NCBI RefSeq assembly: GCF_900104525.1
Contig: NZ_LT629711.1
Location: forward strand, 3,348,001 to 3,412,000
Origin: Pedococcus dokdonensis
Lineage (GTDB): Bacteria; Actinomycetota; Actinomycetes; Actinomycetales; Dermatophilaceae
Length of the DNA stretch: 64,000 bases
Reading direction: 5' to 3'
Under the pieces are notes generated by a model. The model made no database searches. It was not told the origin of the DNA and was given only the letters and a program-made list of their open reading frames with translations. Made by a program: the position numbers and the translations under genes. Numbering within the stretch: the first letter of the stretch is position 1; each line of letters begins with the position of its first letter. Shown one piece after another: positions 40,173 to 63,365 of the stretch.

Positions 40173-40778
40173 TCACCAATCCCCGGTCCGCGCCAAACCT
40201 GCGAGGCGAGCGGCTCGGGGCAGGAGTGTGGGGTCGGCGGCTGGCCAGTCCCGGGGCTGGGGACCGAGGAGCACGAGCTGCTCGACCTGCTCGCGGCACC
40301 AGGACGACACGGTGCGCCGGCCGTCCAGCACCTCGGCGGAGAAGTCCGCCCACGGCACCCACTCGGTGCCACCCACCTCCGCGGGGTCGAGGGTCAGCTC
40401 GCGACTGGTCAGCTCGGTCATGAAGACCGGGCACCGCTCGTTCTCGACCACACCGCCCTGCTCGGCGACGTACGCGAACGCCGGCAGCACCAGCCGCAGC
40501 GCGCCGATGGTCACTCCGAGCTCGTCCCGTGCGCGCCGCCGCACTGCCGCGTCGAGCGGCTCACCGGGCGCGGGGTGCCCACAGACCGAGTTGGTCCAGA
40601 CCCCCGGGAAGGTCGCCTTGCTCGGCGCCCGCTGGGTGACGAGCAGCGCCCCTTCCGGGTCGACGAGGTATGCCGAGAAGGCCAGGTGCAGGGGCGTCGC
40701 ACCATGGTGGACGGTCGCCTTGTCCTGCGTGCCCACCGCGCGACCCTGGTCGTCGAGGAGGACGACGAGCTCGGTCAC
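40173..40778 (-). CDS. idi: Isopentenyl-diphosphate delta-isomerase, type I
   Basis: A 201-residue Nudix-fold enzyme interconverting IPP and DMAPP. The catalytic Cys is in TNSVCGHP, the Nudix-like segment AAVRRRARDELGV follows, and ENERCPVF and TEWVPWADF are family motifs. GTG 40778 overlaps the upstream stop (GTGA). Last gene of the leftward type III PKS cluster; it would supply allylic precursor for the UbiA prenyltransferase. Confidence 0.94.
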   Translation of the reverse strand: MTELVVLLDDQGRAVGTQDKATVHHGATPLHLAFSAYLVDPEGALLVTQRAPSKATFPGVWTNSVCGHPAPGEPLDAAVRRRARDELGVTIGALRLVLPAFAYVAEQGGVVENERCPVFMTELTSRELTLDPAEVGGTEWVPWADFSAEVLDGRRTVSSWCREQVEQLVLLGPQPRDWPAADPTLLPRAARLAGLARTGDW

Positions 40779-41833
40779 GCGGACCGACCCAGCTCGTTGA
40801 CGGCTGCGGAGAACACCCAGGGTGCGCGTGCCGCCAGTGGCACCAGTGCCCGGCGGGCGACCTGCGGCCGGGTGGCCTGCAGCAGTCCGTGCGTGAGCAA
40901 CGAGCAGCGCCAGGTGGCCGCGAGCCAGGCCCGCTCGTAGTCCCGGGGGTGCCCGCCCGCCACTGCGGACACGGCCGCCCGAGCCTGCGCCAGGCCGAGC
41001 GAGATCCCTTCGCCGGTCAGGGCGTCGACGTAGCCGCTGGCGTCGCCGACGAGGAGCACGCGGCCGTCGACCCGTCGGCGGCTGCGCTGCCGCAACGGCC
41101 CGGCTCCCTGCACCGCCGTGGCGGGCTCGGCACCAGCCAGGTGCGAGGCCAGGGAGGGGAACTGCGCGAGGTGCTCGGCGAACGGTCGCCGCCGGCGGCT
41201 CAGGACCGCCACCCCGACCAGGTCGTCCCCCACCGGGGTGACGTAGGCCTCCGCATCCGCGGCCCAGAGCACGTCGACGTGGTTCGACCAGGGCGCGAGG
41301 TGGAAGTGCTGACGGAGCCCGTAGCGCGCGGCCCGGTCCGGGGGGTGGTCGAGGCCCAGGTGGCGCCGGGTCCACGAGTGCAGCCCGTCTGCCGCGACGA
41401 CGTGGCCGGCGCGAAGGGTCGGTCCTTCCGTGCCGCCGGGCGAGCTGGTCGCCACGTCCACGCCGTCGGCGTCCTGTCGCAGGTCGGTGGCGGAGAGCCG
41501 GTGGACGGCAACGCCCGCATGCTCGACCGCGCCCGCCAGCCGGGAGTGCAGCTCGGTGCGCCGGACTCCGCGCCCGAGGCCGTGCCGGAAGTCGGCCACG
41601 GCGCTGCCGCGAGCCGACAGGTAGCGGATCCCCTTGACGGCGTGGCCATCCGGATGGACGCCGAGCTCAGCCAAGGCGGTGAGCCCGCCAGGCATGAGCC
41701 CTTCGCCGCAGGCCTTGTCCACCGGGCCGGGTCTCGGCTCCAGCACCTCCACCGTGAGGCCACGCCGCACGGCATACAGGGCGGTGGCCAACCCGACCGG
41801 TCCGCCGCCGACCACGAGCAGGTCGACGCTCAC
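40775..41833 (-). CDS. FAD-dependent oxidoreductase, geranylgeranyl-reductase/SrsC-like
   Basis: A 352-residue flavoprotein with N-terminal GGGPVGLATALYAVRRG, the CGEGLMPGG segment typical of geranylgeranyl reductase-like enzymes, and the second FAD motif VLLVGDASGYVDALTGEGI. By its place beside a type III PKS and a methyltransferase it parallels SrsC, which hydroxylates alkylresorcinols in Streptomyces griseus. Reduction of a prenyl chain is the alternative. GTG start overlaps the upstream stop. Confidence 0.88.
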   Translation of the reverse strand: MSVDLLVVGGGPVGLATALYAVRRGLTVEVLEPRPGPVDKACGEGLMPGGLTALAELGVHPDGHAVKGIRYLSARGSAVADFRHGLGRGVRRTELHSRLAGAVEHAGVAVHRLSATDLRQDADGVDVATSSPGGTEGPTLRAGHVVAADGLHSWTRRHLGLDHPPDRAARYGLRQHFHLAPWSNHVDVLWAADAEAYVTPVGDDLVGVAVLSRRRRPFAEHLAQFPSLASHLAGAEPATAVQGAGPLRQRSRRRVDGRVLLVGDASGYVDALTGEGISLGLAQARAAVSAVAGGHPRDYERAWLAATWRCSLLTHGLLQATRPQVARRALVPLAARAPWVFSAAVNELGRSA

Positions 41834-42360
41834 GTCGCGCCCGGCCGGACGCCGAGGGCCTGCTCCTCGACCCGGATGCGCACCGACAGCAGGGCGACGT
41901 TGAGGACGCTGAACGCCACGGCGGTCAGCCACGCGGTGTGGACCAGCGGCAGAGCCACCCCTTCGACGACCACGGCGACGTAGTTGGGGTGGCGCAGGAG
42001 CCGGTAGGGGCCGCCGGCGACGAGGGGAGCCCCCGGCACCACGATCACGCGCGTGTTCCACTGCGGTCCGAGCGTCAGGATGCACCACCAGCGCAGGGCC
42101 TGGGCCGCGACGACGAGGGCGAGCATCGGCCAGGCCAGGAGGGGGACGAACGGCCGGTCGGTGGCGACGACCTCGACCACGGCGCCCACCAGGAGGGCGG
42201 TGTGCAGCGCCACCATCGCAGGGAAGTGGCTGCGACCCGACTCGACGCCGCCGCGCGCGAAGGCCCAGGCCGCATGGCGTTTCGACACGACCATCTCGGC
42301 GAGGCGCTCGACGCCGACCGCAGCGACGAGCACGGTGAACCAGAGCTGGGAGGTGGTCAT
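41830..42360 (-). CDS. Isoprenylcysteine-methyltransferase-like membrane methyltransferase
   Basis: A 176-residue membrane protein with about five helices. The C-terminal SAM-binding motif GGPYRLLRHPNYVAVVVEG and RVRIRVEEQAL-type end are those of the ICMT/SrsB family. In the srs system the homolog O-methylates an alkylresorcinol. Seven bases after the PKS stop. Confidence 0.9.
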   Translation of the reverse strand: MTTSQLWFTVLVAAVGVERLAEMVVSKRHAAWAFARGGVESGRSHFPAMVALHTALLVGAVVEVVATDRPFVPLLAWPMLALVVAAQALRWWCILTLGPQWNTRVIVVPGAPLVAGGPYRLLRHPNYVAVVVEGVALPLVHTAWLTAVAFSVLNVALLSVRIRVEEQALGVRPGAT

Positions 42361-42367
42361 GGCCGCC

Positions 42368-43513: not shown

Positions 43514-44359
43514 GTGACGACCGAGCCGACGACGGCAGGCCCGCCGGTGCGGCCCCGGGCCGGGACGCTCGGCGCACTGGTCCGGGCGAGCCACGCCGGG
43601 CCCACCGTCGCCGTCACGGTCCTGACCGCACTGCTCACCGTCGCGCTCGACCTCACCGCCCGCCCCGCGTCCCTCGTGACGGCCGCCGTGTTCACCGGGC
43701 AGCTCACGATCGGGTGGTCCAACGACCTCCTCGACGCCGGCCGCGACCGCGCCGTCCACCGCGCCGACAAGCCGGTGGCGCGGGGCGAGGTCTCGACGAA
43801 GCTGGTGCGCACCGCGATCGGCGCCGCAGGCCTGACCTGCCTCGTCCTGTCGATGGCGTGCGGCTGGCGCTCGGGCCTGGCCCACCTCCTGCTCGGGGTC
43901 GGGTCGGGTTGGGCCTACAACCTCGGCCTCAAGCGCACCGGGTGGTCCGCCCTGCCGTATGCCGTGGCCTTCGGGATCCTGCCCGCCGTCGTCTCCCTCG
44001 CGGGGCCCGACCGGGGCTGGCCCCCCGGGTGGATGGTGGCCACCGGTGCGCTGCTCGGCGTGGGTGCGCACCTGCTCAACGCGCTGCCCGACCTCGCCGA
44101 CGACGCCGCCACCGGGGTGCACGGCCTGCCGCAGCGGCTGGGCGCCGCTCGGGTGCGGATGCTGGCCCCGGCCGTCCTGCTGGCCGGCTCGGCGGTCGCC
44201 ACCCTCGGCCCCGCCGGGACGGTGCCGGCCTGGTCGTGGACGGTCCTGGGCGGCTGCGTGCTGCTCACCGTCGTCGCGGTCGTCGGGCGCGGCCGCGTGC
44301 CGTTCCTCGCGGCGATCGGCATCGCCCTCGTCGACGTGGTGGCCCTGCTCGCCCGCTGA
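43514..44359 (+). CDS. UbiA-family prenyltransferase
   Basis: A 281-residue membrane enzyme with the first aspartate motif NDLLDAGRDRAVHRADKP and a second acidic motif LPDLADD. It would attach an isoprenoid chain to an aromatic acceptor. GTG start. Divergent from the type III PKS; shared promoter region suggests joint control. Confidence 0.92.
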   Translation: MTTEPTTAGPPVRPRAGTLGALVRASHAGPTVAVTVLTALLTVALDLTARPASLVTAAVFTGQLTIGWSNDLLDAGRDRAVHRADKPVARGEVSTKLVRTAIGAAGLTCLVLSMACGWRSGLAHLLLGVGSGWAYNLGLKRTGWSALPYAVAFGILPAVVSLAGPDRGWPPGWMVATGALLGVGAHLLNALPDLADDAATGVHGLPQRLGAARVRMLAPAVLLAGSAVATLGPAGTVPAWSWTVLGGCVLLTVVAVVGRGRVPFLAAIGIALVDVVALLAR

Positions 44360-48641: not shown

Positions 48642-49097
48642 TCAGACCACGCAGAACTCGTTGCCCTCGGGGTCGCGCAGGGTCACGGCGTAGTAGTCGG
48701 CGCCCTCGGGGGCGTTGCGGTAGGCGATGCTCGCGCCCAGTCCGACCAGCCGCTCGACCTCGGCCTCGATGCTCGCCCGCCGCGCGGCATACTCCATCGC
48801 CTCGCGCCCGGGCGTGTGCCTGACGTCGAGGTGCAGGCGGTTCTTCCCCGACTTGGGTTCGGGCACCTCCTGGAACCAGATGCGTGGGCGCACGCCCTCG
48901 GGGTCGACGATCGCGCCGCTGCCGGCCTCCGCGCCCTCGAGCTCGTCGTCCGGGATGCCGGCCGCCCGCCAGTAGGCGAGCCACGAGTCCCAGCCGTCGG
49001 GGGCCGGCTCCGGCACGTAACCCAGCGCCTCGCACCAGAACGCCACGAGGCGTGAGGTGTCGGCACAGTCGAATGTGAGCTGCCAGGTGGGGTTCAT
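48642..49097 (-). CDS. VOC (glyoxalase-like) protein
   Basis: A 151-residue protein of the glyoxalase-like DUF type: WQLTFDCADTSRLVAFWCEALGY at the N-terminus, RLHLDV in the middle and VTLRDPEGNEFCVV at the end. Substrate unknown. Start set at MNPTWQL; the longer upstream frame overlaps the WYL gene. Confidence 0.9.
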   Translation of the reverse strand: MNPTWQLTFDCADTSRLVAFWCEALGYVPEPAPDGWDSWLAYWRAAGIPDDELEGAEAGSGAIVDPEGVRPRIWFQEVPEPKSGKNRLHLDVRHTPGREAMEYAARRASIEAEVERLVGLGASIAYRNAPEGADYYAVTLRDPEGNEFCVV

Positions 49098-49122: not shown

Positions 49123-50100
49123 TCAGCGGGCCCCGTCGGCGGCGGCGGCGAAGCGGGCCGACCACGTCCGCAGCACGTCGAGCACCTCGGGCGTCGCCTG
49201 CTCGAGCGTGAACGGCGCCTCGACCACGCCCAACCCGAAGGCCGCCCACCCCGGGTGCACCGCATCCATCTCGAGCAGGCAGGTCTCGTCGTCGACGGGG
49301 GTGACCCGGGCCCAGCGCCCCGTGCGGCGCTCGACCTGCTCTGCCGGCGCCTGCACCCGGGCGCGCACCACGACGCGGGTCTCGTTGCGGGACAGTCCCT
49401 TTCGCACGTATGCCGCCGCGTCACCTCCCGGCACCTCACGCGGCCGGAAGCGTGACCGGGTGCCGAACGGCTCGGTCAGCCGGTCCAGCCGGAACGATCG
49501 CCAGTCCTGGCGGTCGAGGTCGTAGCCGAGGAGGTACCAGCGGCGGCCGACGGTGACGAGACGGTGGGGCTCGACGTGCCGGCGGACCGCCTCGCCCGCG
49601 CCCTGCCCACCGCGGGCCTCGTAGGTGAACCTGATGCGTTCGGTGTCGCGGGTGGCCTGGGCCACCGCTGCGAGGACGTCCGCGTGGACGGCGGGTGCTT
49701 CGGAGAAGGGCGAGTCGTCGGTCACCGCGCGCAGCGCCTCGGCCCTGCGACGCAGCTTGGGTGGCAGCACCTGCACCACCTTGGACAGCGCGCTGACCGA
49801 CGCCTCGGACAGCGCGCCGGCGGTGAGCTGGGCCGCACCGTTGAGCGCCACGACCATCGCGATCGCCTCGTCCTCGTCGACCGTGAGGGGTGGCATCGTC
49901 GCGCCGGCTCCCAGCTGGTAGCCACCCTCGACCCCGCGGACCGAGTCGACGGGGTAGCCGAGCTCGCGCAGCCGCTCGACGTCCCGGCGCAGGGTGCGCT
50001 CGGAGACCTCGAGCCGGTCGGCGAGCTCCGGGCCGGCCCAGAACCGGTGGGTCTGGAGCAGCGAGAGCAGTCGCAGGGTGCGGGAGCTGGTGTTGGCCAT
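49123..50100 (-). CDS. WYL-domain transcriptional regulator (YafY type)
   Basis: A 325-residue regulator: N-terminal HTH (TLRLLSLLQTHRFWAGPELADRLEVSERTLRRDV), WYL domain (about 140-230, with GRRWYLLGYDLDRQDWRSFRLDR) and a C-terminal WCX extension. ATG 50100 gives the standard N-terminus. Divergent from the MFS pump 97 bases away, its likely target. Confidence 0.92.
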   Translation of the reverse strand: MANTSSRTLRLLSLLQTHRFWAGPELADRLEVSERTLRRDVERLRELGYPVDSVRGVEGGYQLGAGATMPPLTVDEDEAIAMVVALNGAAQLTAGALSEASVSALSKVVQVLPPKLRRRAEALRAVTDDSPFSEAPAVHADVLAAVAQATRDTERIRFTYEARGGQGAGEAVRRHVEPHRLVTVGRRWYLLGYDLDRQDWRSFRLDRLTEPFGTRSRFRPREVPGGDAAAYVRKGLSRNETRVVVRARVQAPAEQVERRTGRWARVTPVDDETCLLEMDAVHPGWAAFGLGVVEAPFTLEQATPEVLDVLRTWSARFAAAADGAR

Positions 50101-50197: not shown

Positions 50198-51757
50198 ATG
50201 ACCACCACACTCGAGGCCACCCGCGACGGGGAGCCGACGGCATACCCACCGGTCGAGACCGGACACCGCACCGAGCCGGGCACGCCGCCGGCCGACCCGA
50301 CGGAGACGCAGGCCGTCGCGCGCGGCGCGCTGCCGGTCGGCAAGGCGCGGACGATCGCGCTGCTCAGCCTGTTCCTCGCGTCGACGATGGAGCTGCTCGA
50401 CACGACCATCGTCAACGTCGCGCTCCCGACCATCGAGTCCGGGCTCGGGGCCAGCGCCGCGCAGCTGCAGTGGATGGTGGCGGCCTACCCGTTGGCGTTC
50501 GCGGTCGGCCTGATCACCGGCTCGCGGCTCGGTGACCTCTGGGGTCGCAAGCGGGTCTTCCTCGGTGGCCTGGTGGGCTTCACGCTCATGTCGGCTGCCT
50601 GCGGGTTCGCGCCGCACGCCGAGGCGCTGGTCGGGTTCCGCGCGCTGCAGGGGATGGCCGCGGCGGCGATGATCCCGCAGGTGCTGTCGAGCCTGCAGGT
50701 GATGTACGCACCGCACGAGCGGGCCAAGGCGATGGGGCTCTTCACCGGCCTGGCCGGGCTGTCGGCGGTGCTGGGCCCGGTGATCGGCGCGCTGCTGACC
50801 GAGGCAGACCTCGGTGGGCTGGGCTGGCGCTCGATCTTCCTGGTCAACGTCCCGTTCGGTGCACTTGCCATCATCGCGGCAGTGCGCTGGGTGCCGGAAT
50901 CCGTTGCGGCACAGAGGCCGCGGATCGACCTGCGCGCAGTGGCGGTGCTGGCCGCCGGTCTGCTCGCGGTGCTCTACCCGCTCACCATGGGTCGCGAGCT
51001 GGGTTGGCCGGCCTGGGTGTATGCCGCGATGGCTGCGGGTGTCGTGGTGCTGGGGCTCTTCGCCCGTTCACAGGTGCGCTCCGAGCGGGTCGGTCGGGAG
51101 CCGCTGGTCGCGCTCGGCCTCTACCGCGGTCGGGGCTTCGCGGCCGGGTCGGCGATGAACTCGTTGCTCTTCATGGCGATGGCGTCCTACTTCCTCTGCC
51201 AGACCATCTACCTGCAGGCAGGGCTCGGCTGGTCGGTGCTGAAGGCCGGTCTGGCCGGGGTGCCGTTCGCGCTGACGACGACGGTCTTCGCGGGGGTGGG
51301 TGTCGCGGTGCTGGCGCCGCGGATCGGCCGGCGGGTGCTGCAGATCGGGGCGCTCACCTGGGCCGCCGGCGCCGTCGTCCTGGGTGTCGCGGTGCACGGG
51401 GCTGACGCCTCGACGTCGGTGTGGACGTTCCTGCCCGGGTTCGTCGTGGCCGGGGCCGGGTTCGGCCTGATGGTGTCGCCGATCGGCGTCTTCACCCTCG
51501 CCGACGTGCCGGTCGACAAGGCCGGGTCGGCCTCGGGGCTGTTCAGCACGACCGGTCAGCTGTCCGGGGCCGCCGGGGTCGCGGTGCTGGGGTCGCTGTT
51601 CTTCTCCGTGGTCGACGGCCACCAGTCGCCGGTGCCGGTCGAGATGTTCCGGCCCGCGATGGAGGTCGCCCTCGCGGTGCTCGTCGGGCTGATGCTCGTG
51701 GCGGCGGTCGTCGCGCGCCAGCTGCCGGCCATGCCGAGCCAGCCCACGGACCACTGA
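50198..51757 (+). CDS. MFS multidrug efflux pump, EmrB/QacA type
   Basis: A 519-residue, fourteen-helix DHA2 carrier with LDTTIVNVALPTIESGLGA, GSRLGDLWGRKRVFL and VNVPFGALAI. Probably exports hydrophobic cations or drugs under control of the divergent WYL regulator. Confidence 0.93.
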   Translation: MTTTLEATRDGEPTAYPPVETGHRTEPGTPPADPTETQAVARGALPVGKARTIALLSLFLASTMELLDTTIVNVALPTIESGLGASAAQLQWMVAAYPLAFAVGLITGSRLGDLWGRKRVFLGGLVGFTLMSAACGFAPHAEALVGFRALQGMAAAAMIPQVLSSLQVMYAPHERAKAMGLFTGLAGLSAVLGPVIGALLTEADLGGLGWRSIFLVNVPFGALAIIAAVRWVPESVAAQRPRIDLRAVAVLAAGLLAVLYPLTMGRELGWPAWVYAAMAAGVVVLGLFARSQVRSERVGREPLVALGLYRGRGFAAGSAMNSLLFMAMASYFLCQTIYLQAGLGWSVLKAGLAGVPFALTTTVFAGVGVAVLAPRIGRRVLQIGALTWAAGAVVLGVAVHGADASTSVWTFLPGFVVAGAGFGLMVSPIGVFTLADVPVDKAGSASGLFSTTGQLSGAAGVAVLGSLFFSVVDGHQSPVPVEMFRPAMEVALAVLVGLMLVAAVVARQLPAMPSQPTDH

Positions 51758-51839: not shown

Positions 51840-52202
51840 TCAGGAGGTGAGCAGGTAGCCGAGCCAGACGGCAGGGAGGCCGAGGCCCAGCGTGAGCGCC
51901 AGGTTGGCGGCGAATGGCTTCCAAGCGCGTTCCTCGAGGAACACCCAGGTCTCGAACGCCAGCGTCGAGAACGTCGTCAGCGCCCCGCAGAAACCGATGC
52001 CCACCAGCGGCATCAGCCACTCCGGCGGGTGCGGCACCCCCGCCACGAGGCCGAGCACGAACGAGCCCACGAGGTTGACCACCAGCGTGCCGAGGATGGT
52101 GCCGGCTCGCGTGTGGTCGCGGGCCCACCGGTCGACGACGAACCGCAGCGGCGCCCCGACCGCAGCCCCCGCCACCACCAGCAGCGCGCCCGAGCCGCTC
52201 AC
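51840..52202 (-). CDS. crcB: Fluoride channel CrcB subunit (second)
   Basis: A 120-residue, four-helix Fluc protein with GAPLRFVVDRW, TLVVNLVGSFVLGL and GFCGALTTFSTLAFE. Overlaps the first crcB by four bases (GTGA). Two adjacent crcB genes usually make a heterodimeric fluoride exporter. Confidence 0.93.
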   Translation of the reverse strand: MSGSGALLVVAGAAVGAPLRFVVDRWARDHTRAGTILGTLVVNLVGSFVLGLVAGVPHPPEWLMPLVGIGFCGALTTFSTLAFETWVFLEERAWKPFAANLALTLGLGLPAVWLGYLLTS

Positions 52203-52609
52203 GCGCGCCGCCCGAAGAGCCGCTCGCCGATCGTGATCCCGATCCCCACCGCGGCGATACCCACGAGCAGTGACCCGACGAGGTATGCCGCGGCGACCAG
52301 TCCGTGCCCCGCCTGCACCATCGCGTGGATGTCGAGCCCGTAGGACGAGAAGGTCGTCCAACCGCCGAGCACCCCGACCCCGAGGAAGGGGCGCAGCCAC
52401 GGGTGCGGCCGTGCCATCGAGAGCACCCAGACCACGAGCACCCCCATGGCCAGCGACCCGGTCACGTTGACGAGAAAGGTCGACCAGGCGAAGGAGCCGG
52501 CGACGTGGGGGAGCGCCAGCCCCACGGCATACCGGCCGAGGGAACCGAGCACGCCACCCGCGGCGACGGCCGCGAGCAGCCCGGCGTCACCGCGGCGCGC
52601 AACGTCCAT
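52199..52609 (-). CDS. crcB: Fluoride channel CrcB subunit (first)
   Basis: A 136-residue, four-helix Fluc protein with GGVLGSLGRYAVGL, TFLVNVTGSLAMGVL and GVLGGWTTFSSYGLD. The ATG overlaps the aminotransferase stop. No fluoride riboswitch is visible, since the gene sits inside an operon. Confidence 0.93.
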   Translation of the reverse strand: MDVARRGDAGLLAAVAAGGVLGSLGRYAVGLALPHVAGSFAWSTFLVNVTGSLAMGVLVVWVLSMARPHPWLRPFLGVGVLGGWTTFSSYGLDIHAMVQAGHGLVAAAYLVGSLLVGIAAVGIGITIGERLFGRRA

Positions 52610-53838
52610 CAGGCGCGCTGCGTCTCCAGGAAGTCGGCGATCCGCCCGATCGCCTCGGTGAGGACCTCGACGTCGGGCAGCGTCACGAGCCGGAAGTGGT
52701 CGGGCTCGAACCAGTTGAAGCCGGTGCCGTGGGTGACCAGGATCTTCTTGCTGCGCAACAGGTCGATGACGAAGGCCTGGTCGTCCTCGATCGGGTAGAC
52801 GTCCGGGTCGAGCCGCGGGAAGCAGTACAGCGCCCCGTGCGGTTCGACGCAGGAGACGCCGGGGATCTCGTTGAGCAGCCGCCACGCGGTCTTGCTCTGC
52901 TCGTAGAAGCGACCGCCGGGGTGGATGTACTCCTCGATCGACTGGTAACCGCCGAGCGCGGTCTGGATCGCGTGCTGCCCGGGGACGTTGGCGCACATGC
53001 GCATGTTGGCCAGCAGCGTCAGTCCCTCGAGGAAGTCGGTGGCGAGCTCCTTGGGTCCGGACACCATCACCCAGCCGGCGCGGTAGCCGCAGACCCGGTA
53101 GGCCTTGGACAGCCCGCTGAAGGTCAGGCACAGGACGTCGTCGCCCGCGAACGTCGCGGTGTGGTGGTGGACGGGCTGGTTGACGTCGTCGGCGAAGAGG
53201 ATCTTCTCGTAGATCTCGTCTGACATCAGGACCAGGTTGTGGCGGCGGGCGATGTCGGCCATGCCGCGCACGATGTCGTCGCTGTAGACGGCACCGGTGG
53301 GGTTGTTGGGGTTGATCACGACGAGGGCGTGGGTGTTCTCGGTGATCTTCGACTCGATGTCGGCGAGGTCGGGGTTCCAGCCGTTGGACTCGTCGCAGCG
53401 GTAGTGGACGGGCGTCCCGCCGGCGAGGGTCACGGCGCCGGTCCACAGCGGGTAGTCCGGTGCGGGCACGAGGATCTCGTTGCCGTCGTCGACGAAGGCG
53501 GTGAGCACCATCGAGATCAGCTCGGAGACACCGTTGCCGATGAAGACGTCGTCGACGTGCGTGTCGGTCAGCCCGCGCGACTGGTAGTAGTGCGCCACCG
53601 CGGTGCGCGCGGAGTAGATGCCGCGGGAGTCGCTGTAGCCCTGCGAGTTCGGCAGGTGGTGCACCATGTCCTGGAGGATCGCCTGGGGGGCCTCGAACCC
53701 GAACGGCTGCGGGTTGCCGATGTTGAGCTTGAGGATCTTGTGTCCCTCGGCCTCGAGCTTCTGGGCCTCGACCAGGATCGGGCCGCGGACGTCGTAGCGG
53801 ACCTGGTGGAGCTTGCGGGACTGGGTGATTCGGCGCAC
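52609..53838 (-). CDS. PLP-dependent aminotransferase (AlaA-like)
   Basis: A 409-residue class I aminotransferase with INPNNPTGAVY, the PLP-lysine motif FSGLSKAYRVCGYRAGW and N-terminal LKLNIGNPQPFGF. Resembles glutamate-pyruvate/AlaA-type enzymes. Chained to the two crcB genes by overlaps, with no obvious functional link. GTG start. Confidence 0.93.
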   Translation of the reverse strand: MRRITQSRKLHQVRYDVRGPILVEAQKLEAEGHKILKLNIGNPQPFGFEAPQAILQDMVHHLPNSQGYSDSRGIYSARTAVAHYYQSRGLTDTHVDDVFIGNGVSELISMVLTAFVDDGNEILVPAPDYPLWTGAVTLAGGTPVHYRCDESNGWNPDLADIESKITENTHALVVINPNNPTGAVYSDDIVRGMADIARRHNLVLMSDEIYEKILFADDVNQPVHHHTATFAGDDVLCLTFSGLSKAYRVCGYRAGWVMVSGPKELATDFLEGLTLLANMRMCANVPGQHAIQTALGGYQSIEEYIHPGGRFYEQSKTAWRLLNEIPGVSCVEPHGALYCFPRLDPDVYPIEDDQAFVIDLLRSKKILVTHGTGFNWFEPDHFRLVTLPDVEVLTEAIGRIADFLETQRA

Positions 53839-53842
53839 GGGC

Positions 53843-54454
53843 TCAGTCTCCCAGCAGTTCGACCGTGGTCACGACGCTGGTCACGCTCGGGCGCGTCGGA
53901 GTCGAGCTGAACCCGAACCGGCAGGGCGGGTCGACGTCGGCCAGCCGCCCCAGGGGAGTGCCGCGCCACGAGCCGCCGAGGCTCGACACGGAGCGCAGGT
54001 CGGTGGCGCCGTACCACTCGCGGCGTCCTTCCAGCGCGGTCCCGCGCGTGCGGACCCCGCGCATCACGACCTTGGCGACCGGGTCGATGAGGGTGGCCCA
54101 GGCCGGGCTGGCCGCCACCGGCGGTGGCACCGCGCGCAGCAGCCAGCCGAGCGGCATACGGGGCCCGAGAGCCAGGTATGCCGTGAGCGCGCCTTCCGCC
54201 TGCACGTCCCAGCCGTCCGTGGTCGCCTGCACCGACACGGGTGTCGTGACGACCTCGTCGAACGCGTAGGTCTGCTGGACGAAGTCGGCGACCTCGTCGT
54301 CCGGGGCGAGGAGCGTCCGGTGCCCGGCAGCGTCCTCGACCATCACGTCGGCGAACGACCCGAGGGGTGACTCGGTCCACCGCCCCACGACGAACCGCAC
54401 GCCGCTGGTCGAGCCGACCCCGGCGATGGCGCCCGTGAAACGCAGTCGCTGCAC
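53843..54454 (-). CDS. Conserved actinobacterial protein of unknown function
   Basis: A 203-residue soluble protein (VQRLRFTGAIAGVGSTSGVRF start). Predicted mainly beta; no recognised motif. The GTG at 54454 gives a compact start; the frame stays open upstream into a hairpin region. Four bases upstream of the aminotransferase gene, so probably one operon. Confidence 0.7.
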   Translation of the reverse strand: MQRLRFTGAIAGVGSTSGVRFVVGRWTESPLGSFADVMVEDAAGHRTLLAPDDEVADFVQQTYAFDEVVTTPVSVQATTDGWDVQAEGALTAYLALGPRMPLGWLLRAVPPPVAASPAWATLIDPVAKVVMRGVRTRGTALEGRREWYGATDLRSVSSLGGSWRGTPLGRLADVDPPCRFGFSSTPTRPSVTSVVTTVELLGD

Positions 54455-54542: not shown

Positions 54543-56015
54543 TCAGTGGGTCGGCTTGGTGAAGGCGAGGGCTGCGACGACGCCGATCAGCAGCACTGCG
54601 GCGGGGAGCAGCAGGGTCTGCGACATCGCCGTGGCGAAGCCGTCCGCGATCTGCGGCGGGAGCTTCACCCCCGAGGTGCGCTGCGACATGTCCTGCGGCA
54701 CGCCTGGGAGGTTCGCGGTGAGCCGGGCCTCGATCAGGGCCGCGATGGCGGCGCTGCCCAGCACGGCGCCGACCTGGCGGGTGGTGTTGTAGATGCCCGA
54801 CCCGGCACCGGCGGATGACAGCGGCAGGTTGCGGGTCGCGGTCGCGGCCAGCGGGGCCCACATGAAGGCGTTCGCGACACCCATGAGCGCCATGGGCAGC
54901 AGGAGCAGCCAGGTCTTGCTGTCGACCGTCGTGACCCGGCTCAGCCAGAAGAGGGAGGCCGAGCAGAGCGCCAGCCCGAACGCCGTGATGGTGCGCGGGT
55001 GGATGCGGTCGGTCAGCTTGCCTGCGACGGGTGCCAGCGCGGCAGACAGCACGGCCATCGGCACGAGCAGCAGGGCGGACCTGGTCGGGGTCAGGCCGCG
55101 GACGACCTGCGCGTACAGCATGAACGGGAAGGCCATGCCGGTGATCGAGAAGCCGACCGAGCTGATCGCGATGTTGGACAGCGAGAAGTTGCGGTCGCGG
55201 AAGAGTCCCAGCGGCACCAGCGGCTCGGTGCGGATCCGGCTCTGCCAGAAGATGAAGAGGCCGAAGATGACCAGGCCGGCGACGATGAGCAGGGGCACCG
55301 AGAGGATGCCGTTGATCTGGCCCCAGTCGTAGGTCTCGCCCTCCTGGATGCCGAAGACCAGCAGGAACATGCCGACGGCCGAGAGCGCCACGCCGACCCA
55401 GTCGAAGGTGTGGCTGTGCGTCTCGAGCCGGGGCACCAGGCGCATGGCCAGCACGAAGGCGACGACCCCGATCGGCACGTTGATGAAGAAGATCCACTCC
55501 CAGCCGGGACCGTCCACGAGCAGCCCACCCAGGAGCGGCCCGACCAGGATGGCGACGCCGGCGGTGGCGCCCCAGAGCGACATCGCCTGGCCGCGCGAGG
55601 CAGCCGGGAAGGTGCGGGTGATGACGGCCATCGTCTGCGGGGTCATCAGCGACGCGCCGAGACCCTGCACGACGCGGGCGATGATCAGCATCGCGATCGT
55701 GCTGGTCAGGCCGCACCACAGCGAGGCGACGGTGAACAGCGCGAGCCCGGCGAGGTAGACGTACTTCGGCCCGATCCGGTCGCCGAGCCGGCCGGTGATC
55801 AGCAACGGCACGGCATACGCGAGCAGGTAGGCGGAGGTGACCCAGATGACGGCGTTCACGTCGGAGTCGAGGCCCTGCATGATCGCCGGCGTCGCCACCG
55901 ACACGATCGTGGAGTCGACCAGGATCATGAAGAAGCCGATCACCATCGCCCACAGCGCCGGCCAGGGACGGTAGTCGGCGGGGAGGTCGGTCCTCACGGT
56001 TGTGGGTGCGGCCAT
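54543..56015 (-). CDS. MFS multidrug transporter, DHA2 type
   Basis: A 490-residue, fourteen-helix carrier (VDSTIVSVATPAIMQGL, GRLGDRIGPKYVYL, INVPIGVVAFVLA). The start ATG lies inside the end of padR (22-base overlap), so translation is coupled. Likely target of the PadR repressor. Confidence 0.93.
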   Translation of the reverse strand: MAAPTTVRTDLPADYRPWPALWAMVIGFFMILVDSTIVSVATPAIMQGLDSDVNAVIWVTSAYLLAYAVPLLITGRLGDRIGPKYVYLAGLALFTVASLWCGLTSTIAMLIIARVVQGLGASLMTPQTMAVITRTFPAASRGQAMSLWGATAGVAILVGPLLGGLLVDGPGWEWIFFINVPIGVVAFVLAMRLVPRLETHSHTFDWVGVALSAVGMFLLVFGIQEGETYDWGQINGILSVPLLIVAGLVIFGLFIFWQSRIRTEPLVPLGLFRDRNFSLSNIAISSVGFSITGMAFPFMLYAQVVRGLTPTRSALLLVPMAVLSAALAPVAGKLTDRIHPRTITAFGLALCSASLFWLSRVTTVDSKTWLLLLPMALMGVANAFMWAPLAATATRNLPLSSAGAGSGIYNTTRQVGAVLGSAAIAALIEARLTANLPGVPQDMSQRTSGVKLPPQIADGFATAMSQTLLLPAAVLLIGVVAALAFTKPTH

Positions 56016-56773: not shown

Positions 56774-58132
56774 GTGACGCCGCGATCCGCGCCGCCGTCG
56801 GCGCTGCCACCACGCGTGGTGCGCGGCTACGCGCTCGGGTCGGTCGCCACGGGCGCGTTCGGCACCGTGCCGGGGCTTTTGTTGCTGCCCTACCTCACCG
56901 ACCGGCTCGGGGTGGCCGCCGGGCTCGCGGGCGCGATCGTGTTCCTGCCCAAGGCCTGGGACGTCGTCCTCAACCCGGTCGCCGGCCGGATCAGCGACCA
57001 CACGGTCTCACCGTCGGGCCCACGCCGACCGTTCCTCCTGCGCGGCGGGGTCGCCCTCGCGCTCGCCTTCGCGGTGCTCTTCGCCGGACCTGCCTCGCCG
57101 CAGGGGGTGTCCGCCACGTGGGTCGTCGTCGCGTTCCTCGCCTGCGCGACGGCCTACGCGTTCTTCCAGGTGCCCTATGTCGCGATGCCGGCCGAGATGA
57201 CCGACGACTATGGCGAGCGCACCCGGCTGATGATCTGGCGGGTGGCGGTCCTGGCGCTCGCGATCCTCGTCAGCGGGGCGTCGGCCCCGGCGATCCGCGA
57301 CGCGGTCGGGCCCGCCCAGGGCTACCGCGTGATGGGCCTCGTCGTCGCCGCGCTCATCCTCGTCGGGGTGCTCGGGGCGTGGCGGGGCACCGCAGCGGCT
57401 CCCACTCGTGTCGTGCCGGCGTCCGCGGGCGGCTTGGCTGCTCAGCTGCGGATCGTGGCTGCTGCCAAGGACTTCCGCATGCTGCTCGGCACGTTCGTGC
57501 TCCAGGCGCTGGCGACCGGGGCGATGCTCGCGGGCGTCGACTACGTCGCCCGCCACGTCCTCGGGCGGCCCGGCGCCTCGACCGTCCTGTTCGTCTGCTT
57601 CGTGGGCCCTGCGCTGCTCGTGACGCCCGTGTGGCAGCGGGTGGGCGCCGTCCGCGGCAAGCGCTGGGGGTATGCCGCCGCGTCCGTCCTGCTCGCGGCT
57701 GGCGCCCTGGCACTGGTGGCCGCCCGGTCGCTGCCGCTCGTCCTCGTCTACCTCGCCGTCGCGGTGGTGGGTGTGGGTTACGCGGGTGCGCAGGTCTTCC
57801 CGCTGGCCATGCTGCCCGACGTCGCCGCGGTCGACGCCGCCCGCTCCGGCGCGAACCGGATCGGTGTCTTCACCGGCGTCTGGACCGCGGGCGAGACGCT
57901 CGGGCTGGCCCTCGGCCCCGGCCTGTATGCCGTGGTGCTCGCCGTGGGTGGCTACGTCTCCTCGACGGATTCGACTGCAGTGCAGCCGGACTCGGCGGTC
58001 ACTGCGATCGGGATCGGCTTCTCCGTGGTGCCGGCGGCCCTCGTGGCGGTGAGCCTGCTCCTCCTGGCTCGCTACCGTCTCGACGAGGCAGCGGTGTCCG
58101 GTGCCGCCGTCCCCACGCACGAGGAGGTCTGA
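56774..58132 (+). CDS. MFS transporter, GPH (glycoside-cation symporter) type
   Basis: A 452-residue, twelve-helix carrier with KAWDVVLNPVAGRISDHT and GPRRPFLL, typical of the melibiose-carrier/GPH group, and AEMTDDYGERTRLMIWR in the middle loop. GTG start. Overlaps the PLP enzyme by one base, so the two are coupled. Confidence 0.9.
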   Translation: MTPRSAPPSALPPRVVRGYALGSVATGAFGTVPGLLLLPYLTDRLGVAAGLAGAIVFLPKAWDVVLNPVAGRISDHTVSPSGPRRPFLLRGGVALALAFAVLFAGPASPQGVSATWVVVAFLACATAYAFFQVPYVAMPAEMTDDYGERTRLMIWRVAVLALAILVSGASAPAIRDAVGPAQGYRVMGLVVAALILVGVLGAWRGTAAAPTRVVPASAGGLAAQLRIVAAAKDFRMLLGTFVLQALATGAMLAGVDYVARHVLGRPGASTVLFVCFVGPALLVTPVWQRVGAVRGKRWGYAAASVLLAAGALALVAARSLPLVLVYLAVAVVGVGYAGAQVFPLAMLPDVAAVDAARSGANRIGVFTGVWTAGETLGLALGPGLYAVVLAVGGYVSSTDSTAVQPDSAVTAIGIGFSVVPAALVAVSLLLLARYRLDEAAVSGAAVPTHEEV

Positions 58133-59577
58133 TGGGACTGTCCACCGACGAGGTCGTCGCCCGGCTCGAGGCGATGCGGTCGGGCGACCTGCCGACCCAC
58201 GGCGGGCGCACCCTCGCCTACGTCTACGACTCGGGCCTGGCGGACGCCGACGCGCTGGGTCGTCGGGCGCTGGCGATGTTCGCGTCGGCGAACGGCCTCG
58301 ACCCCACCGCCTTCCCGAGCCTGCTGCAGATGGAGCAGGAGCTGGTCGGCTTCGCGGGACGGCTGCTCGACGCACCCGACGGTTACGTCGGCACGGCGAC
58401 CAGTGGAGGCACCGAGTCGATCCTGCTGGCCGTGCAGACCGCCCGCGACGCCCGCCCCGACGTCGAACGACCCCGGATGGTCCTGCCGACGACAGCCCAC
58501 GCGGCGTTCCACAAGGCAGCCCACTACTTCGGTGTCGAGGCGGTGCTCGTCCCGGTCGACCCGGTGACCTTCCGGGCCGATGCCGACGCCATGGCCGCCG
58601 CGATCGATGACCGCACGGTGCTCGTGGTCGCGAGTGCGCCCTCCTACGCCCACGGGGTGGTCGACCCGGTCGGCGCGATCGCGGGGACGGCGGCTGCCGC
58701 CGGCGCCCGGTGCCACGTCGACGCCTGCATCGGTGGTTGGGTGCTGCCCTACCTCCAGCGCGCCGGTGCCGAGCTGCCGGCGTGGACCTTCGAGGTGGAG
58801 GGCGTCACGAGCATCTCGGTCGACCTGCACAAGTACGCCTACACGCCGAAGGGAGTCTCCCTGCTGCTCCACCGCACGGCCGCCCTGCGGAGACCCCAGT
58901 TCTTCGCCGCCGCCGACTGGCCCGGCTACACGATGCTGAACTCGACCACCCAGTCCACCAAGTCGGGCGGCCCGCTGGCCGCAGCCTGGGCCGTGGTCAC
59001 GCACCTCGGCGACGACGGCTACGCGACGCTGGCCGCCCAGGTCGGCGACGGCATACGGGCGCTCCTGGCGGGGCTGGCCGCGATCCCGCAGCTGACCGTG
59101 GTCGCCGCGCCCGAGTCGACGCTGGTGGCCCTGCGCGTGGACGAGAGCTGTGACGTGTTCACGATCTGCGACGAGATGCAGTCCCGCGGGTGGTTCGTGC
59201 AGCCGCAGATGGCGTTCGGTGGGGAGCCACCGACGATGCACCTGACCCTGAGCGCCGCGACGGCTCCGCTGGTGCCGGAGTTCCTGGCCGCGCTGGCCGA
59301 CTCGGTCGCGGCGGCGGTGGCGGCCGGGCCGGTGCGGGTCGCCCCGGAGCTCGTGGCGGCGGCCGGCGCCATCGACCCCGCCACCCTCGACGAGGCGGCC
59401 TTCGACGGGCTGCTCCAGGTGGCCGGGCTGGCCGGCGCCGACGGCGAGCTGACGTTGCCGGAGCGGTTCGCGCCGGTCAACGCGCTGCTCGACGTGGCAC
59501 CGCCGCGCCTGCGCGAGGCGCTGCTCGTCGCCTTCCTTGACCGGCTTTCGCGCCCCCGGCCGACAACCAGCCCCTAG
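58132..59577 (+). CDS. PLP-dependent decarboxylase/lyase (sphingosine-1-phosphate lyase-like)
   Basis: A 481-residue group II PLP enzyme: ATSGGTESILLAVQTAR binds the cofactor phosphate, HVDACIGGWVLPYL carries the Asp, and SISVDLHKYAYTPKG contains the Schiff-base Lys. Close to glutamate decarboxylase and sphingosine-1-phosphate lyase families; substrate uncertain. Coupled to the upstream transporter, which may import the substrate. Confidence 0.92.
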   Translation: MGLSTDEVVARLEAMRSGDLPTHGGRTLAYVYDSGLADADALGRRALAMFASANGLDPTAFPSLLQMEQELVGFAGRLLDAPDGYVGTATSGGTESILLAVQTARDARPDVERPRMVLPTTAHAAFHKAAHYFGVEAVLVPVDPVTFRADADAMAAAIDDRTVLVVASAPSYAHGVVDPVGAIAGTAAAAGARCHVDACIGGWVLPYLQRAGAELPAWTFEVEGVTSISVDLHKYAYTPKGVSLLLHRTAALRRPQFFAAADWPGYTMLNSTTQSTKSGGPLAAAWAVVTHLGDDGYATLAAQVGDGIRALLAGLAAIPQLTVVAAPESTLVALRVDESCDVFTICDEMQSRGWFVQPQMAFGGEPPTMHLTLSAATAPLVPEFLAALADSVAAAVAAGPVRVAPELVAAAGAIDPATLDEAAFDGLLQVAGLAGADGELTLPERFAPVNALLDVAPPRLREALLVAFLDRLSRPRPTTSP

Positions 59578-59587
59578 GCTCCCCTCC

Positions 59588-60034
59588 ATGGCACCCACGT
59601 CAGACCTCGGCGAGCTCGAGGTCGAGCTGAGCCGGCTGCTCCGGCGGGCCCGCAGCGCTCAGCAGCGCACCGCCGCCCAGGTGCACCCCGACCTCGACTC
59701 CGCCGGGTATGCCGTGCTGGTCGCGATCCGCGACCTGGCCCTCGCCGGGGGAGGGGCCCGTGGCGGTGACATCTCCGACGTGCTCGGCCTGCACAAGTCG
59801 ACGACGAGCCGGAACCTCACGACGCTCGAGGAGCTCAGGCTGATCGAGCGGATCCCCGACCCGGCCGACGCCCGAGCCCGACAGGTGCGGCTGACGACCG
59901 CCGGTTCCGAGGCCCTCGAGCGCACGTTCGCGGGCCGCCGCGAACGGCTCAAGGCCCGGCTGGCCGACTGGACCGCCGACGACGTGGCCGACCTGGCCCG
60001 GCTCCTGCGCCTCCTCAACGACACCGCCCCCTGA
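59588..60034 (+). CDS. MarR-family regulator
   Basis: A 148-residue winged helix with SDVLGLHKSTTSRNLTTLEELRLI and DPADARARQVRLT. Ten bases after the PLP enzyme gene, so probably in its operon. ATG 59588. Confidence 0.92.
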   Translation: MAPTSDLGELEVELSRLLRRARSAQQRTAAQVHPDLDSAGYAVLVAIRDLALAGGGARGGDISDVLGLHKSTTSRNLTTLEELRLIERIPDPADARARQVRLTTAGSEALERTFAGRRERLKARLADWTADDVADLARLLRLLNDTAP

Positions 60035-60097
60035 TCCTCCGGTCGGGTGTGCCGGCCCGCGCGAGGCGCGCTGACACCCGGCTGCGGTCGACCAGAA

Positions 60098-60142
60098 GTT
60101 GCGTGTAGCAACTAACTGGAGTTATGGTTGTGTTCTGCAACC
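60098..60142 (+). promoter_or_regulatory. Two MarR-type palindromes before the marR/MFS operon
   Basis: GTTGCGTGTAGCAAC (60098-60112) and GGTTGTGTTCTGCAACC (60126-60142) are both inverted repeats of the GTTGC/GCAAC type, 28 bases apart centre to centre. They flank the likely -10 region of the operon and probably bind the MarR encoded next. Confidence 0.72.
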
Positions 60143-60154
60143 AAAGGACTCCGC

Positions 60155-60730: not shown

Positions 60731-62361
60731 TGTCAGTCACTTCCGTGTCCGCCAGCGCACCCGCACGCACCACCGCCGCGGCGTCCACCGCCGCCGGCAC
60801 CGGCGAGATGTCGCACCGTCAGATCCTCGAGGCCATGACCGGCCTGCTCGCGGGCCTGTTCACCGCGATGCTCAGCAGCACCATCGTCTCGACCGCCCTG
60901 CCGACCATCATCGGCGACCTGCGCGGCACCCAGCGCCAGTACACCTGGGTGATCACCGCGTCGCTGCTCGCCACCACCGTGAGCACCCCGATCTGGGGCA
61001 AGCTGTCCGACCTGTTCAGCAAGAAGCTCCTCGTCCAGCTGTCCCTGCTGGTCTTCGTCGCCGGATCGATCGCGGCCGGCCTGTCGCAGACGGTCGGCTT
61101 CCTGATCGCCTGCCGTGTCGTGCAGGGGCTGGGCATGGGCGGGCTCACCGCCCTCACCCAGTCGATCATGGGCGCGATGATCGCCCCGCGCCAGCGCGGT
61201 CGGTATGCCGGCTACATGGGTGCCGTGATGGCCGTCGCCACCGTGAGCGGCCCGCTGCTCGGTGGGCTCATCGTCGACAGCAGCCTCGGGTGGCGCTGGA
61301 CGTTCTACGTCTGCATCCCGCTGGCCGTCATCGCGCTGTTCGTCCTCCAGGCCACGCTGCACATCACGACCGCCAAGCGGAAGCCGAAGATCGACTACCT
61401 CGGCGCGGGCCTGATCGGGGTCACCGCGTCACTGCCGCTGCTCTGGGTCACCTTCGCGGGCAACGACTTCCCCTGGTGGTCGGCGCAGACCGTCTGGTAC
61501 CTCGGCGGCACCGTGGTGGCACTGGTCCTCACCGTCGTCGTCGAGCTGCGTGCTGCCGAGCCGATCATCCCGATCCGGCTGCTCAAGAGCATGACGACCG
61601 GCCTCGTCGTCATCGCGAGCGCCGCCGTCGGTGTCGCGATGTTCGGTGGCACCACCTTCCTCACCCAGTACTTCCAGATCTCGAGGGACTACAGCCCGAC
61701 CCATGCCGGTCTGCTCACGATCCCGCTGATGGGTGCGCTGCTCCTCTCGTCCACCGTCGGTGGCCAGGTCGTGAGCCGCACCGGCCGGTGGAAGGGCATC
61801 ATCATCGGCGGCGCGGTCTTCCTCGTCGCAGGGACCGCGGGGCTCGGCCGGATCGACCACCTCACCCCGATGTGGCAGATCGGCGTCGCGATGGCGCTGA
61901 TGGGCTTCGGTGTGGGCGCGATGATGCAGAACCTGGTGCTCGCGGTGCAGAACTCGGTCGACGTGAGCAACATCGGCGCGGCCTCGGCGACCATCGCCTT
62001 CTTCCGCACCCTCGGTGGCGCGATCGGGGTCTCCGTGCTCGGTGCGGTCCTGGCCAACGGGGTCCGCGACAACATCACGGCCGGGCTCGCCGCCCTCGGG
62101 CCCAAGGCTGCTGCGGCCGCCCAGTCCGGTGGGGGCACCGGCACCCTCGACCTCAAGGACATGCCTGCGCCGATCGCCGACATCGTCCGCGCGGCCTACG
62201 GCGACGCGACCGGCCACATCTTCCTGATCAGTGCGGTCTTCGCCGCGGTGGCGCTGCTGGCGGTGCTGTTCGTCAAGGAGGTGCCGCTGCGCACGACCGT
62301 CTCGATGGCCGACGAGGTCAAGGTCGCGGCCACCACCGGGACCGGCGCCCCCTCCGCCTGA
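60730..62361 (+). CDS. MFS multidrug efflux pump, EmrB/QacA type
   Basis: A 543-residue, fourteen-helix DHA2 carrier (MLSSTIVSTALPTIIGDL, GKLSDLFSKKLLVQ). Coupled to the MarR gene upstream. Long loop near the end (AAAAQSGGGTGTLDLKDMPA) precedes the last helix. Confidence 0.93.
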   Translation: MSVTSVSASAPARTTAAASTAAGTGEMSHRQILEAMTGLLAGLFTAMLSSTIVSTALPTIIGDLRGTQRQYTWVITASLLATTVSTPIWGKLSDLFSKKLLVQLSLLVFVAGSIAAGLSQTVGFLIACRVVQGLGMGGLTALTQSIMGAMIAPRQRGRYAGYMGAVMAVATVSGPLLGGLIVDSSLGWRWTFYVCIPLAVIALFVLQATLHITTAKRKPKIDYLGAGLIGVTASLPLLWVTFAGNDFPWWSAQTVWYLGGTVVALVLTVVVELRAAEPIIPIRLLKSMTTGLVVIASAAVGVAMFGGTTFLTQYFQISRDYSPTHAGLLTIPLMGALLLSSTVGGQVVSRTGRWKGIIIGGAVFLVAGTAGLGRIDHLTPMWQIGVAMALMGFGVGAMMQNLVLAVQNSVDVSNIGAASATIAFFRTLGGAIGVSVLGAVLANGVRDNITAGLAALGPKAAAAAQSGGGTGTLDLKDMPAPIADIVRAAYGDATGHIFLISAVFAAVALLAVLFVKEVPLRTTVSMADEVKVAATTGTGAPSA

Positions 62362-62382
62362 CTCGCGCCTCCTGACCCACCT

Positions 62383-62454
62383 CGCAATACGGCGGTTGCG
62401 TCCACTCCCGCCCAACTATTGCCGGGGGGAAGGGGACGCAACTGCCGTATTGCG
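62383..62454 (+). terminator. Large inverted repeat after the MFS gene
   Basis: Two 21-base arms (62383-62403 and 62434-62454) pair with one mismatch around a 30-base loop. The arms begin CGCAATACGGC and end GCCGTATTGCG. Likely terminator. Confidence 0.72.
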
Positions 62455-62513
62455 TGGGCGAGACGACGGCGACGGCGCGTGACGAGGGCCACGCGTGCTC
62501 CAGGTTCCGGACC

Positions 62514-62525
62514 TACCGATCGGTA
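62514..62525. promoter_or_regulatory. TetR-type palindrome upstream of the dehydrogenase
   Basis: TACCGATCGGTA is a perfect palindrome 15 bases before the dehydrogenase start. This is a common TetR-family operator core; no tetR gene is in the window. Confidence 0.5.
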
Positions 62526-62540
62526 ACTAGGCTCCGGGCC

Positions 62541-63365
62541 ATGACGACGCTCTCCGGCACGACCATCATCATGTCCGGCGGGAGCCGCGGGATCGGCCTC
62601 GCGATCGCGGTCCGCGCAGCCCGCGACGGCGCCAACGTCGCCCTGATCGCCAAGACCGACCAGCCCGACCCGCGGCTGGCCGGCACCATCCACACGGCGG
62701 CCGCGGCGATCGAGGCGGCCGGTGGTCACGCGCTCCCGATCGTCGGCGACGTCCGCGACGACGAGCTCCTCGCGGCTGCCGTGGAGAAGACCGCGGCGCA
62801 GTTCGGTGGGATCGACGTCGTGGTCAACAACGCCAGCGTCCTCAACCTCAGCCCGACCGCCCAGCTCGAGCCGAAGCGCTACGACCTCATGCAGGACATC
62901 AACGTCCGCGGAACCTTCATGCTGACCCGCGCGGCCATCCCGCACCTGCTGGCCAGCCCGGACCCCAAGGTCCTGACGCTCTCCCCGCCCATCAACCTGG
63001 ACCCGCGCTGGTTCGCCGGCCACCCGGCATACACGATGGCGAAGTATGGGATGACGCTGGCAGCACTGGGATTCGCGCACGAGCTGGGACAGAAGGGCGT
63101 CTCGTCGACCTGTCTCTGGCCGGCCACCCTGGTCGCCACCGACGCGATCGGCAACCTGCCGGGCGGTGACCAGATGGTGAAGGTGAGCCGCAAGCCCGAG
63201 ATCGTCGCCGACGCCGCCTACGAGGTGCTCACCACCGACGGACAGGGTCTCAACGGCCAGACCCTGATCGACGAGGACCTCCTGAGGGCCCGCGGGGTGG
63301 CCGACTTCGCGGCCTACTCCATGACGGGCAAGGACGAGGGCCTCGCGCCCGACATCTTCCTCTGA
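62541..63365 (+). CDS. Short-chain dehydrogenase/reductase
   Basis: A 274-residue Rossmann enzyme with cofactor motif SGGSRGIG, NNAS and catalytic YTMAK. Resembles the HSDL2-like group of SDRs. Substrate unknown. ATG 62541. Confidence 0.93.
   Translation: MTTLSGTTIIMSGGSRGIGLAIAVRAARDGANVALIAKTDQPDPRLAGTIHTAAAAIEAAGGHALPIVGDVRDDELLAAAVEKTAAQFGGIDVVVNNASVLNLSPTAQLEPKRYDLMQDINVRGTFMLTRAAIPHLLASPDPKVLTLSPPINLDPRWFAGHPAYTMAKYGMTLAALGFAHELGQKGVSSTCLWPATLVATDAIGNLPGGDQMVKVSRKPEIVADAAYEVLTTDGQGLNGQTLIDEDLLRARGVADFAAYSMTGKDEGLAPDIFL

Follow-up and report, generated by a model that had tools for sequence, protein, structure and literature searches.

The octamer in the window and the genome

The window analysed here is a 64-kb stretch of the Pedococcus dokdonensis chromosome (bases 3,348,001–3,412,000 of the one contig, 3,942,064 bases, that forms the host genome, handle G000), and its subject is the octamer GTATGCCG, which recurs on both strands. 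The left part of the window, positions 1–40500 by a boundary taken from the original prediction, is a metal-resistance island. Ten ORFs (open reading frames) were scanned there, and they include two multicopper oxidases, a CopD/CtaG fusion, ResB, cytochrome c assembly proteins, and a heavy-metal P-type ATPase that carries YHS and heavy-metal-binding domains. The window holds 21 exact copies of the octamer, against a mean of 0.99 and a maximum of 4 in dinucleotide shuffles. Three lie in the island, at 2168–2175 (minus strand), 6228–6235 (plus), and 11403–11410 (plus). The other 18 lie from 40,668 on, ten on the plus strand and eight on the minus strand. Seven of these read GTATGCCGTG, the octamer followed by TG, at 41770–41777 (minus), 43957–43964 (plus), 52525–52532 (minus), 54176–54183 (plus), 55811–55818 (minus), 57925–57932 (plus), and 59707–59714 (plus). 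The remaining eleven are at 40668–40675 (plus), 48785–48792 (minus), 49408–49415 (plus), 50238–50245 (minus), 51019–51026 (plus), 52283–52290 (plus), 54152–54159 (minus), 57670–57677 (plus), 59049–59056 (minus), 61203–61210 (plus), and 63025–63032 (minus). The copies at 54152–54159 and 54176–54183 are the left and right arms of an inverted pair in '-+' order with a 16-base gap. The original prediction had counted 18 copies right of the island, three within it, and seven with the longer word, and all three counts hold.

The whole genome (3.94 Mb) contains 1,927 copies (973 on one strand and 954 on the other), against 57 (28 and 29) of the reversed word, a count far above expectation and in keeping with the genomic tag that the original prediction had proposed. 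In a sample of 20 spread 20-kb stretches (400 kb in total), GTATGCCG is the most over-represented 8-mer, with 188 copies where 5.4 (order-1 Markov model) or 10.0 (order-3) are expected. Of 190 TATGCCG heptamers in the sample, 188 are preceded by G. Single-base variants are mostly about as frequent as expected; GGATGCCG, GTAGGCCG, GTATGGCG, and GTATGTCG are mildly in excess. The over-representation is real and larger than first claimed. At the genome rate the island should hold 19.8 copies rather than three (Poisson P 3.8e-6), which bears out the suggested difference in density between island and chromosome, and the 23.5 kb to its right are only mildly rich (18 vs. 11.5 expected, P 0.045). Orientation is balanced genome-wide and in each half of the sample (plus to minus 41:40 in the first ten stretches and 56:51 in the last ten), the halves being only a rough stand-in for replichores because the origin was not mapped. 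As the original prediction had argued, a strand-biased signal such as KOPS (FtsK-orienting polar sequences) is unsupported.

Codon use and conservation

Codon tests used 302 called genes (322 kb) from our own ORF caller, which covers about three-quarters of the sampled sequence. These genes hold 135 octamers, against 7.2 ± 2.7 after pooled synonymous shuffling (maximum 17 in 200 shuffles) and 11 ± 3.2 after shuffling that keeps codon context (maximum 19 in 100). Because synonymous shuffling yields about 7 copies where 135 are seen, codon use is not the explanation, and codon pairing alone, as first suggested, does not suffice. Two phases, Tyr-Ala (62) and Ala-Tyr (37), account for 99 of the 135 genic copies, as a codon bias might lead one to expect, and the octamer occurs in all six phases (62, 37, 12, 12, 6, and 6). 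TAT makes up 153 of 1,852 tyrosine codons in the called genes, and 62 of those 153 lie inside an octamer; in the frame xxG-Tyr-Ala-Gxx, TAT-GCC is found 62 times and TAC-GCC 11 times. Genic copies are sense in 78 cases and antisense in 57 (P 0.08). Outside the called genes lie 71 of 206 copies. If open-ended ORFs are also treated as genes, intergenic sequence contains 49 of 201 copies, and the octamer is denser there (0.64 per kb) than in genes (0.44 per kb). In gaps shorter than 600 bp, where numbers are small, densities per kb are 1.21 between codirectional genes (17 copies), 1.19 between convergent genes (5), and 0.17 between divergent genes (1).

Conservation was followed in seven comEC loci of the same genus with an overall identity of 76–84%, by ordered pairwise comparisons, whose counts are not statistically independent. 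The aligned counterpart of an octamer is identical in 264 of 386 gap-free cases, with 11 further cases gapped. Among aligned alanine codons, GCA within the octamer is kept as GCA in 72 of 89 cases, compared with 123 of 837 elsewhere; TAT is kept in 97 of 134 cases within the octamer, compared with 39 of 75 elsewhere. Counterparts that lack the octamer, the commonest being GTACGCCG (29), differ from it by transversions at every one of the eight positions and by transitions at six of them, so that an origin by C-to-T deamination alone is ruled out.

Distribution and related words in the family

The family Dermatophilaceae, which includes Knoellia, Terrabacter, Janibacter, and Ornithinimicrobium, was represented by 186 genomes (G numbers denote genomes and g numbers genera; controls are counts of control words). 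At least 400 copies of GTATGCCG are present in 106 of them, and all 11 genomes of the host's genus hold 625–3,986. A ComEC-based scan kept 80 loci, and the octamer was recounted in 23 of the named genomes behind them. Rich genomes, with controls in brackets, are those of Knoellia remsis with 3,277 copies (276), Humibacillus xanthopallidus with 3,225 (439), Intrasporangium oryzae with 2,765 (357), Phycicoccus elongatus Lp2 with 2,614 (80), Terrabacter sp. Root85 with 2,300 (237), Ornithinimicrobium tianjinense with 1,758 (29), and Arsenicicoccus bolidensis with 1,660 (578). Poor ones are Intrasporangium flavum with 66 (21), Dermacoccus abyssi with 46 (28), an uncultured Phycicoccus with 35 (7), and Janibacter indicus with 18 (12). 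Kribbella, Haloactinopolyspora, Nocardioides, Streptomyces, Sphaerisporangium, and Actinoplanes hold 46–199 copies (controls 36–104), and 22 genomes from other families of the order hold 2–167, or 0.5–3.6 times their controls. G127, G151, and G065 are lone octamer-poor members of rich genera, with 19, 50, and 37 copies, respectively; G127 carries GTACG forms instead, and the low counts of G151 and G065 may be natural losses or further word switches.

Related words were surveyed by ranking 8-mers against synonymous shuffles in 46 genomes, using 20–420 kb of each (100-kb sets for the first five). CG-rich, triplet-like words reach z scores of 7–9 in many genomes, and such a score alone is therefore no evidence. 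Among 20 genomes chosen as rich in GTATGCCG, this word holds the top rank in 16 and the second, third, and fourth ranks in G009, G010, and G082, respectively; in G025 it falls outside the top seven. Genera poor in GTATGCCG often carry a relative of it. One such word is GGATGCCG, with 91 copies per 100 kb in G202 and 53 in 40 kb of G083. Its whole-genome counts are 3,949 in G202 (g74), 2,099–4,480 in four genomes of g53, and 3,816 and 3,838 in g17 (controls 200–439); seven of the 186 genomes fall in the range 2,099–4,480, and the next highest holds 1,336. Two genomes, G085 and G086, hold two words at once, GGATGCCG at 2,195 and 2,099 copies and GTATGCCG at 1,217 and 1,189. GTATGACG also occurs beside GTATGCCG, with 1,557 copies in G013, 834 in G014, 597 in G021, 347 in G015, and 344 in G028 (controls 58–151), and GTATG[N]CG is used in G013, G066, G082, and G141. 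Words of the type GTACGMCG characterize g65, where GTACGCCG and GTACGACG are seen 66 and 46 times in the genes of G130 against 15 and 12 expected. In G127 the figures are 44 vs. 12 for GTACGGCG, 50 vs. 20 for GTACGACG, and 28 vs. 12 for GTACGCCG, and weaker GTACG forms occur in G033 and G034. Because GTACG[A/C/G]CG words consist of the commonest codons, their ratios are lower and their assignment is less sure. On the ComEC tree, G127 is the sister of the GTATGCCG-bearing G035, yet the two use different words.

CGATGCGG, with 44 copies in 60 kb of G126, is probably a further related word, and GTATGCGG is weak in G030 (11 in 40 kb). CGAAGGGG reaches 1,198–3,180 copies in 19 of the 186 genomes, namely all 16 Janibacter (g62; G098–G113) and all three of g66 (G132–G134), against controls of 72–148 and a next highest count of 396; G110 carries CGAAGGG[A/G]G besides. 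In Janibacter and its sister genus, CGAAGGGG is a strong word even when taken by itself and looks unreported, and its sequence places it in the GTATGCCG series only tentatively. Nothing convincing was found in 14 of the 46 genomes surveyed (G024, G029, G058, G061, G065, G067, G072, G087, G115, G136, G138, G180, G186, and G207), of which G029 and G061 are mildly enriched in GTATGCCG, with 293 copies in each against controls of 130 and 74. When the words are aligned without gaps, A at position 3 and G at position 5 are invariant, and the fixed positions are kept across related taxa in GGATGCCG, GTATGNCG, and GTACGMCG and, less surely, in CGATGCGG and CGAAGGGG. Word labels cluster on the ComEC tree, a single-gene tree of 40 genomes with two long branches: 12 changes are required against a shuffled mean of 21.5, none of 200 shuffles was as low, and the bearers of CGAAGGGG form one clade.

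Inverted pairs

Close pairs, taken as neighbouring copies starting 8–50 bp apart, were collected from 32 genomes with an assigned word. They are inverted in 50 of 63 cases, 35 in '+-' and 15 in '-+' order, the latter being that of the window's own pair at 54,152/54,176. Hairpin examples were seen for the GTATGCCG, GTATGACG, GGATGCCG, GTACGACG, CGAAGGGG, and CGATGCGG forms. In the host every one of the seven pairs less than 60 bp apart is inverted, and the five that were folded have uninterrupted stems of 12–16 bp with z from −3.4 to −7.7.

Competence genes

Competence potential is family-wide, and no tested gene marks octamer bearers. The ComEC family PF03772 matches 180 of 186 genomes and TadE 181, the host among them in both cases, and this near-universal presence rules out either gene as a discriminator of bearers. 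In the host, comEA (SLBB and helix-hairpin-helix domains, names that come from Pfam and cover this genome only) adjoins comEC. A comEA match lies beside comEC in 40 of 40 loci, from bearers and non-bearers alike, and is confined to the C-terminal end in G024 and G058. PilM, a type IVa pilus gene, matches just seven of the 186 genomes, which makes a ComP-like type IVa pilus receptor less likely. The sole strong PilM match in the family (E 2.9e-38) is in G035, at C2:210707-211714 (L072), a hint that this one genome may have imported a type IVa pilus locus. RecC (PF04257) is patchy, with matches in 89 of the 186 genomes; G065 has it and the four other genomes of its genus are without it.

A putative DNA uptake sequence

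We consider that GTATGCCG is probably the local dialect of a system of DNA uptake sequences (DUS) in the Dermatophilaceae. It resembles DUS and the uptake signal sequences (USS) of Pasteurellaceae in copy number and strand balance, in dialects that keep certain positions fixed, in genomes that hold two words and relatives that hold none, in '+-' hairpins, and in its scarcity in the island. On these grounds the octamer signature is likely to work as a DUS does, with putative membership of that class. Of the original reading, a host-specific tag that recent imports lack and that resembles HIP1 (highly iterated palindrome 1) of cyanobacteria or a DUS, the tag stands after both the genome-wide count and the codon tests. 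The DUS fits clearly better than HIP1, since the word is non-palindromic, has dialects, and stands, where copies are close, mostly in inverted hairpin pairs.

Under this interpretation, a surface DNA receptor would bind octamer-carrying DNA better than other DNA during natural transformation. It would probably belong to a Tad/Flp pilus that, as in Micrococcus luteus, delivers DNA to ComEA and ComEC. In M. luteus, another actinobacterium, two tad clusters are needed for transformation, and tad together with comEA/EC is frequent in Actinobacteria (PMC4322843). Chromosomal alleles with the octamer would undergo uptake and recombination more often, and the octamer would therefore be multiplied and maintained by molecular drive. 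The metal island and other imports would begin without it, and a shift in receptor specificity would lead to the slow rewriting of the genome to a new dialect. We infer that a DNA-uptake receptor reads the octamer, that molecular drive acts, and that events ran in this order.

Several known systems are informative here. In Neisseriaceae, as described in PMC3630211, DUS reach thousands of copies, with one word per species; one or two bases distinguish the dialects, and certain positions stay fixed. Simonsiella holds two dialects at once, as G085 and G086 do here, and in both families some members are without the word. The Dermatophilaceae differ in phylum and envelope, in an 8-base rather than a 10–12-base word, and in the near absence of PilM, and their word is a putative uptake sequence with a putative receptor. 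Pasteurellaceae USS share the inverted '+-' hairpin pairs and the balanced overall orientation (PMC1852404, PMC12616744, and PMC2346458), the '+-' bias of uptake words being that given in PMC1852404. One USS orientation is commoner in frame, a feature set here beside the sense and antisense counts above; the USS word is unrelated to GTATGCCG, and uptake here is putative. Micrococcus luteus shares comEA-comEC and Tad-type genes, the presumed machinery here (PMC4322843), and the term 'uptake sequence' is absent from that paper. A 2025 paper states that uptake sequences are known in Neisseriaceae and Pasteurellaceae only (PMC12616744). We found no report of the octamer as a tag, or of uptake sequences in Dermatophilaceae or Actinobacteria, among the records listed from the literature searched, whose coverage leaves out bioRxiv and most subscription journals. 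The octamer string itself occurs in 643 papers, and the titles of the 15 listed show no connection. We lean towards a third, independently evolved uptake-sequence system, the first in Gram-positives, which would operate by Tad/Flp-pilus competence. It would comprise at least four or five octamer dialects within one actinobacterial family, with genome-wide rewriting at each switch.

A number of observations weigh against an uptake sequence. For Dermatophilaceae, the literature searched gave no data on uptake, binding, or transformation. The competence genes that the original prediction had suggested seeking are present, and nothing ties the octamer to them, since genera in which no word was seen have comEC and TadE just as often. 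The six genomes with no comEC match all carry the octamer (341–1,485 copies), these being drafts of 30–760 contigs and 58–95% completeness. The matching binding protein suggested alongside those genes was not found, nor was a reader gene near comEC among the neighbouring gene families compared, the candidates there (SIR2, LysM, glycerol-3-phosphate acyltransferase, DegV, LysR, LexA, and others) being unconvincing. Close pairs are no commoner than chance (63 vs. 66 expected). Of the seven host hairpin pairs, two fall within called genes, and the T-tracts are poor; for these reasons we say only that octamer hairpins may act as terminators. The Janibacter and g66 word CGAAGGGG shares few positions with the other words.

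Among other explanations, a HIP1-like or other methylation tag, kept by a cognate methyltransferase through repair or self-marking and replaced by alternates where the enzyme changed, appears unlikely. HIP1 is likewise an extremely over-represented octamer with alternates in some genomes, and alternate HIPs have matching methyltransferases in cyanobacteria (PMC4390886); octamer-poor islands would fit equally. However, by the same source HIP1 is a palindrome tied to methyltransferases, whereas GTATGCCG and its relatives are non-palindromic, and transversions at all eight counterpart positions are not expected from C-to-T deamination alone.

We regard as improbable a Chi-like hotspot read by a helicase-nuclease other than RecBCD, such as AdnAB. 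Chi of RecBCD is a short, non-palindromic, over-represented word, and GTATGCCG resembles it in these respects; being genome-wide, island-poor, and variable between genera would also suit a hotspot. Against this, there is no orientation bias in total or per half, and the enrichment here is much stronger than that of Chi. RecC was not found in the host and nine of its ten congeners (in the genus only G002 has a match), and it is present in all three g66 and 15 of 16 Janibacter genomes, which lack GTATGCCG. RecBCD Chi itself is rejected for the host genome because no RecC match was found in it.

There is also a low probability that the octamer is bound by an abundant regulator or chromosome-organising protein and has been co-opted locally as terminator hairpins. 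Its conservation across species, its even spread, and its scarcity between divergent genes (1 copy in 5.9 kb) would agree with such a site. However, the synonymous opportunities in genes are nearly saturated, as the TAT-GCC and TAC-GCC counts illustrate, and the word of a whole genome changes between sister species, neither of which is expected of nucleoid-protein or regulator sites. Finally, a codon, codon-pair, or mutational bias retains almost no probability, being refuted by both shuffles, by the higher density outside genes, and by the low counts in other families of the order.

If the octamer is indeed an uptake sequence, Actinomycetota would have a convergent system, showing that uptake tags can evolve in bacteria with another kind of envelope and probably another pilus. 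The words would then form a natural dialect set for finding the receptor, given sister genomes that differ (G035/G127) and genomes with two words (G085, G086), and for testing molecular drive against selection. The octamer would also offer a ready means of telling recently imported DNA in these bacteria from their older chromosome.

Other features of the window

In the window, neither Rfam nor a tRNA scan gave a match, and PADLOC on ten window ORFs gave a single weak one. Positions 1–25,000 match 129 plasmid records, none with 80% cover, and the eight matches listed are metal-transport ATPase or MBL-fold (metallo-beta-lactamase) genes. To the right of the island, positions 52199–53446 (minus) encode an ORF of 415 amino acids, perhaps a fusion or one with a misplaced start, in which the final 120 residues match the fluoride channel CrcB.

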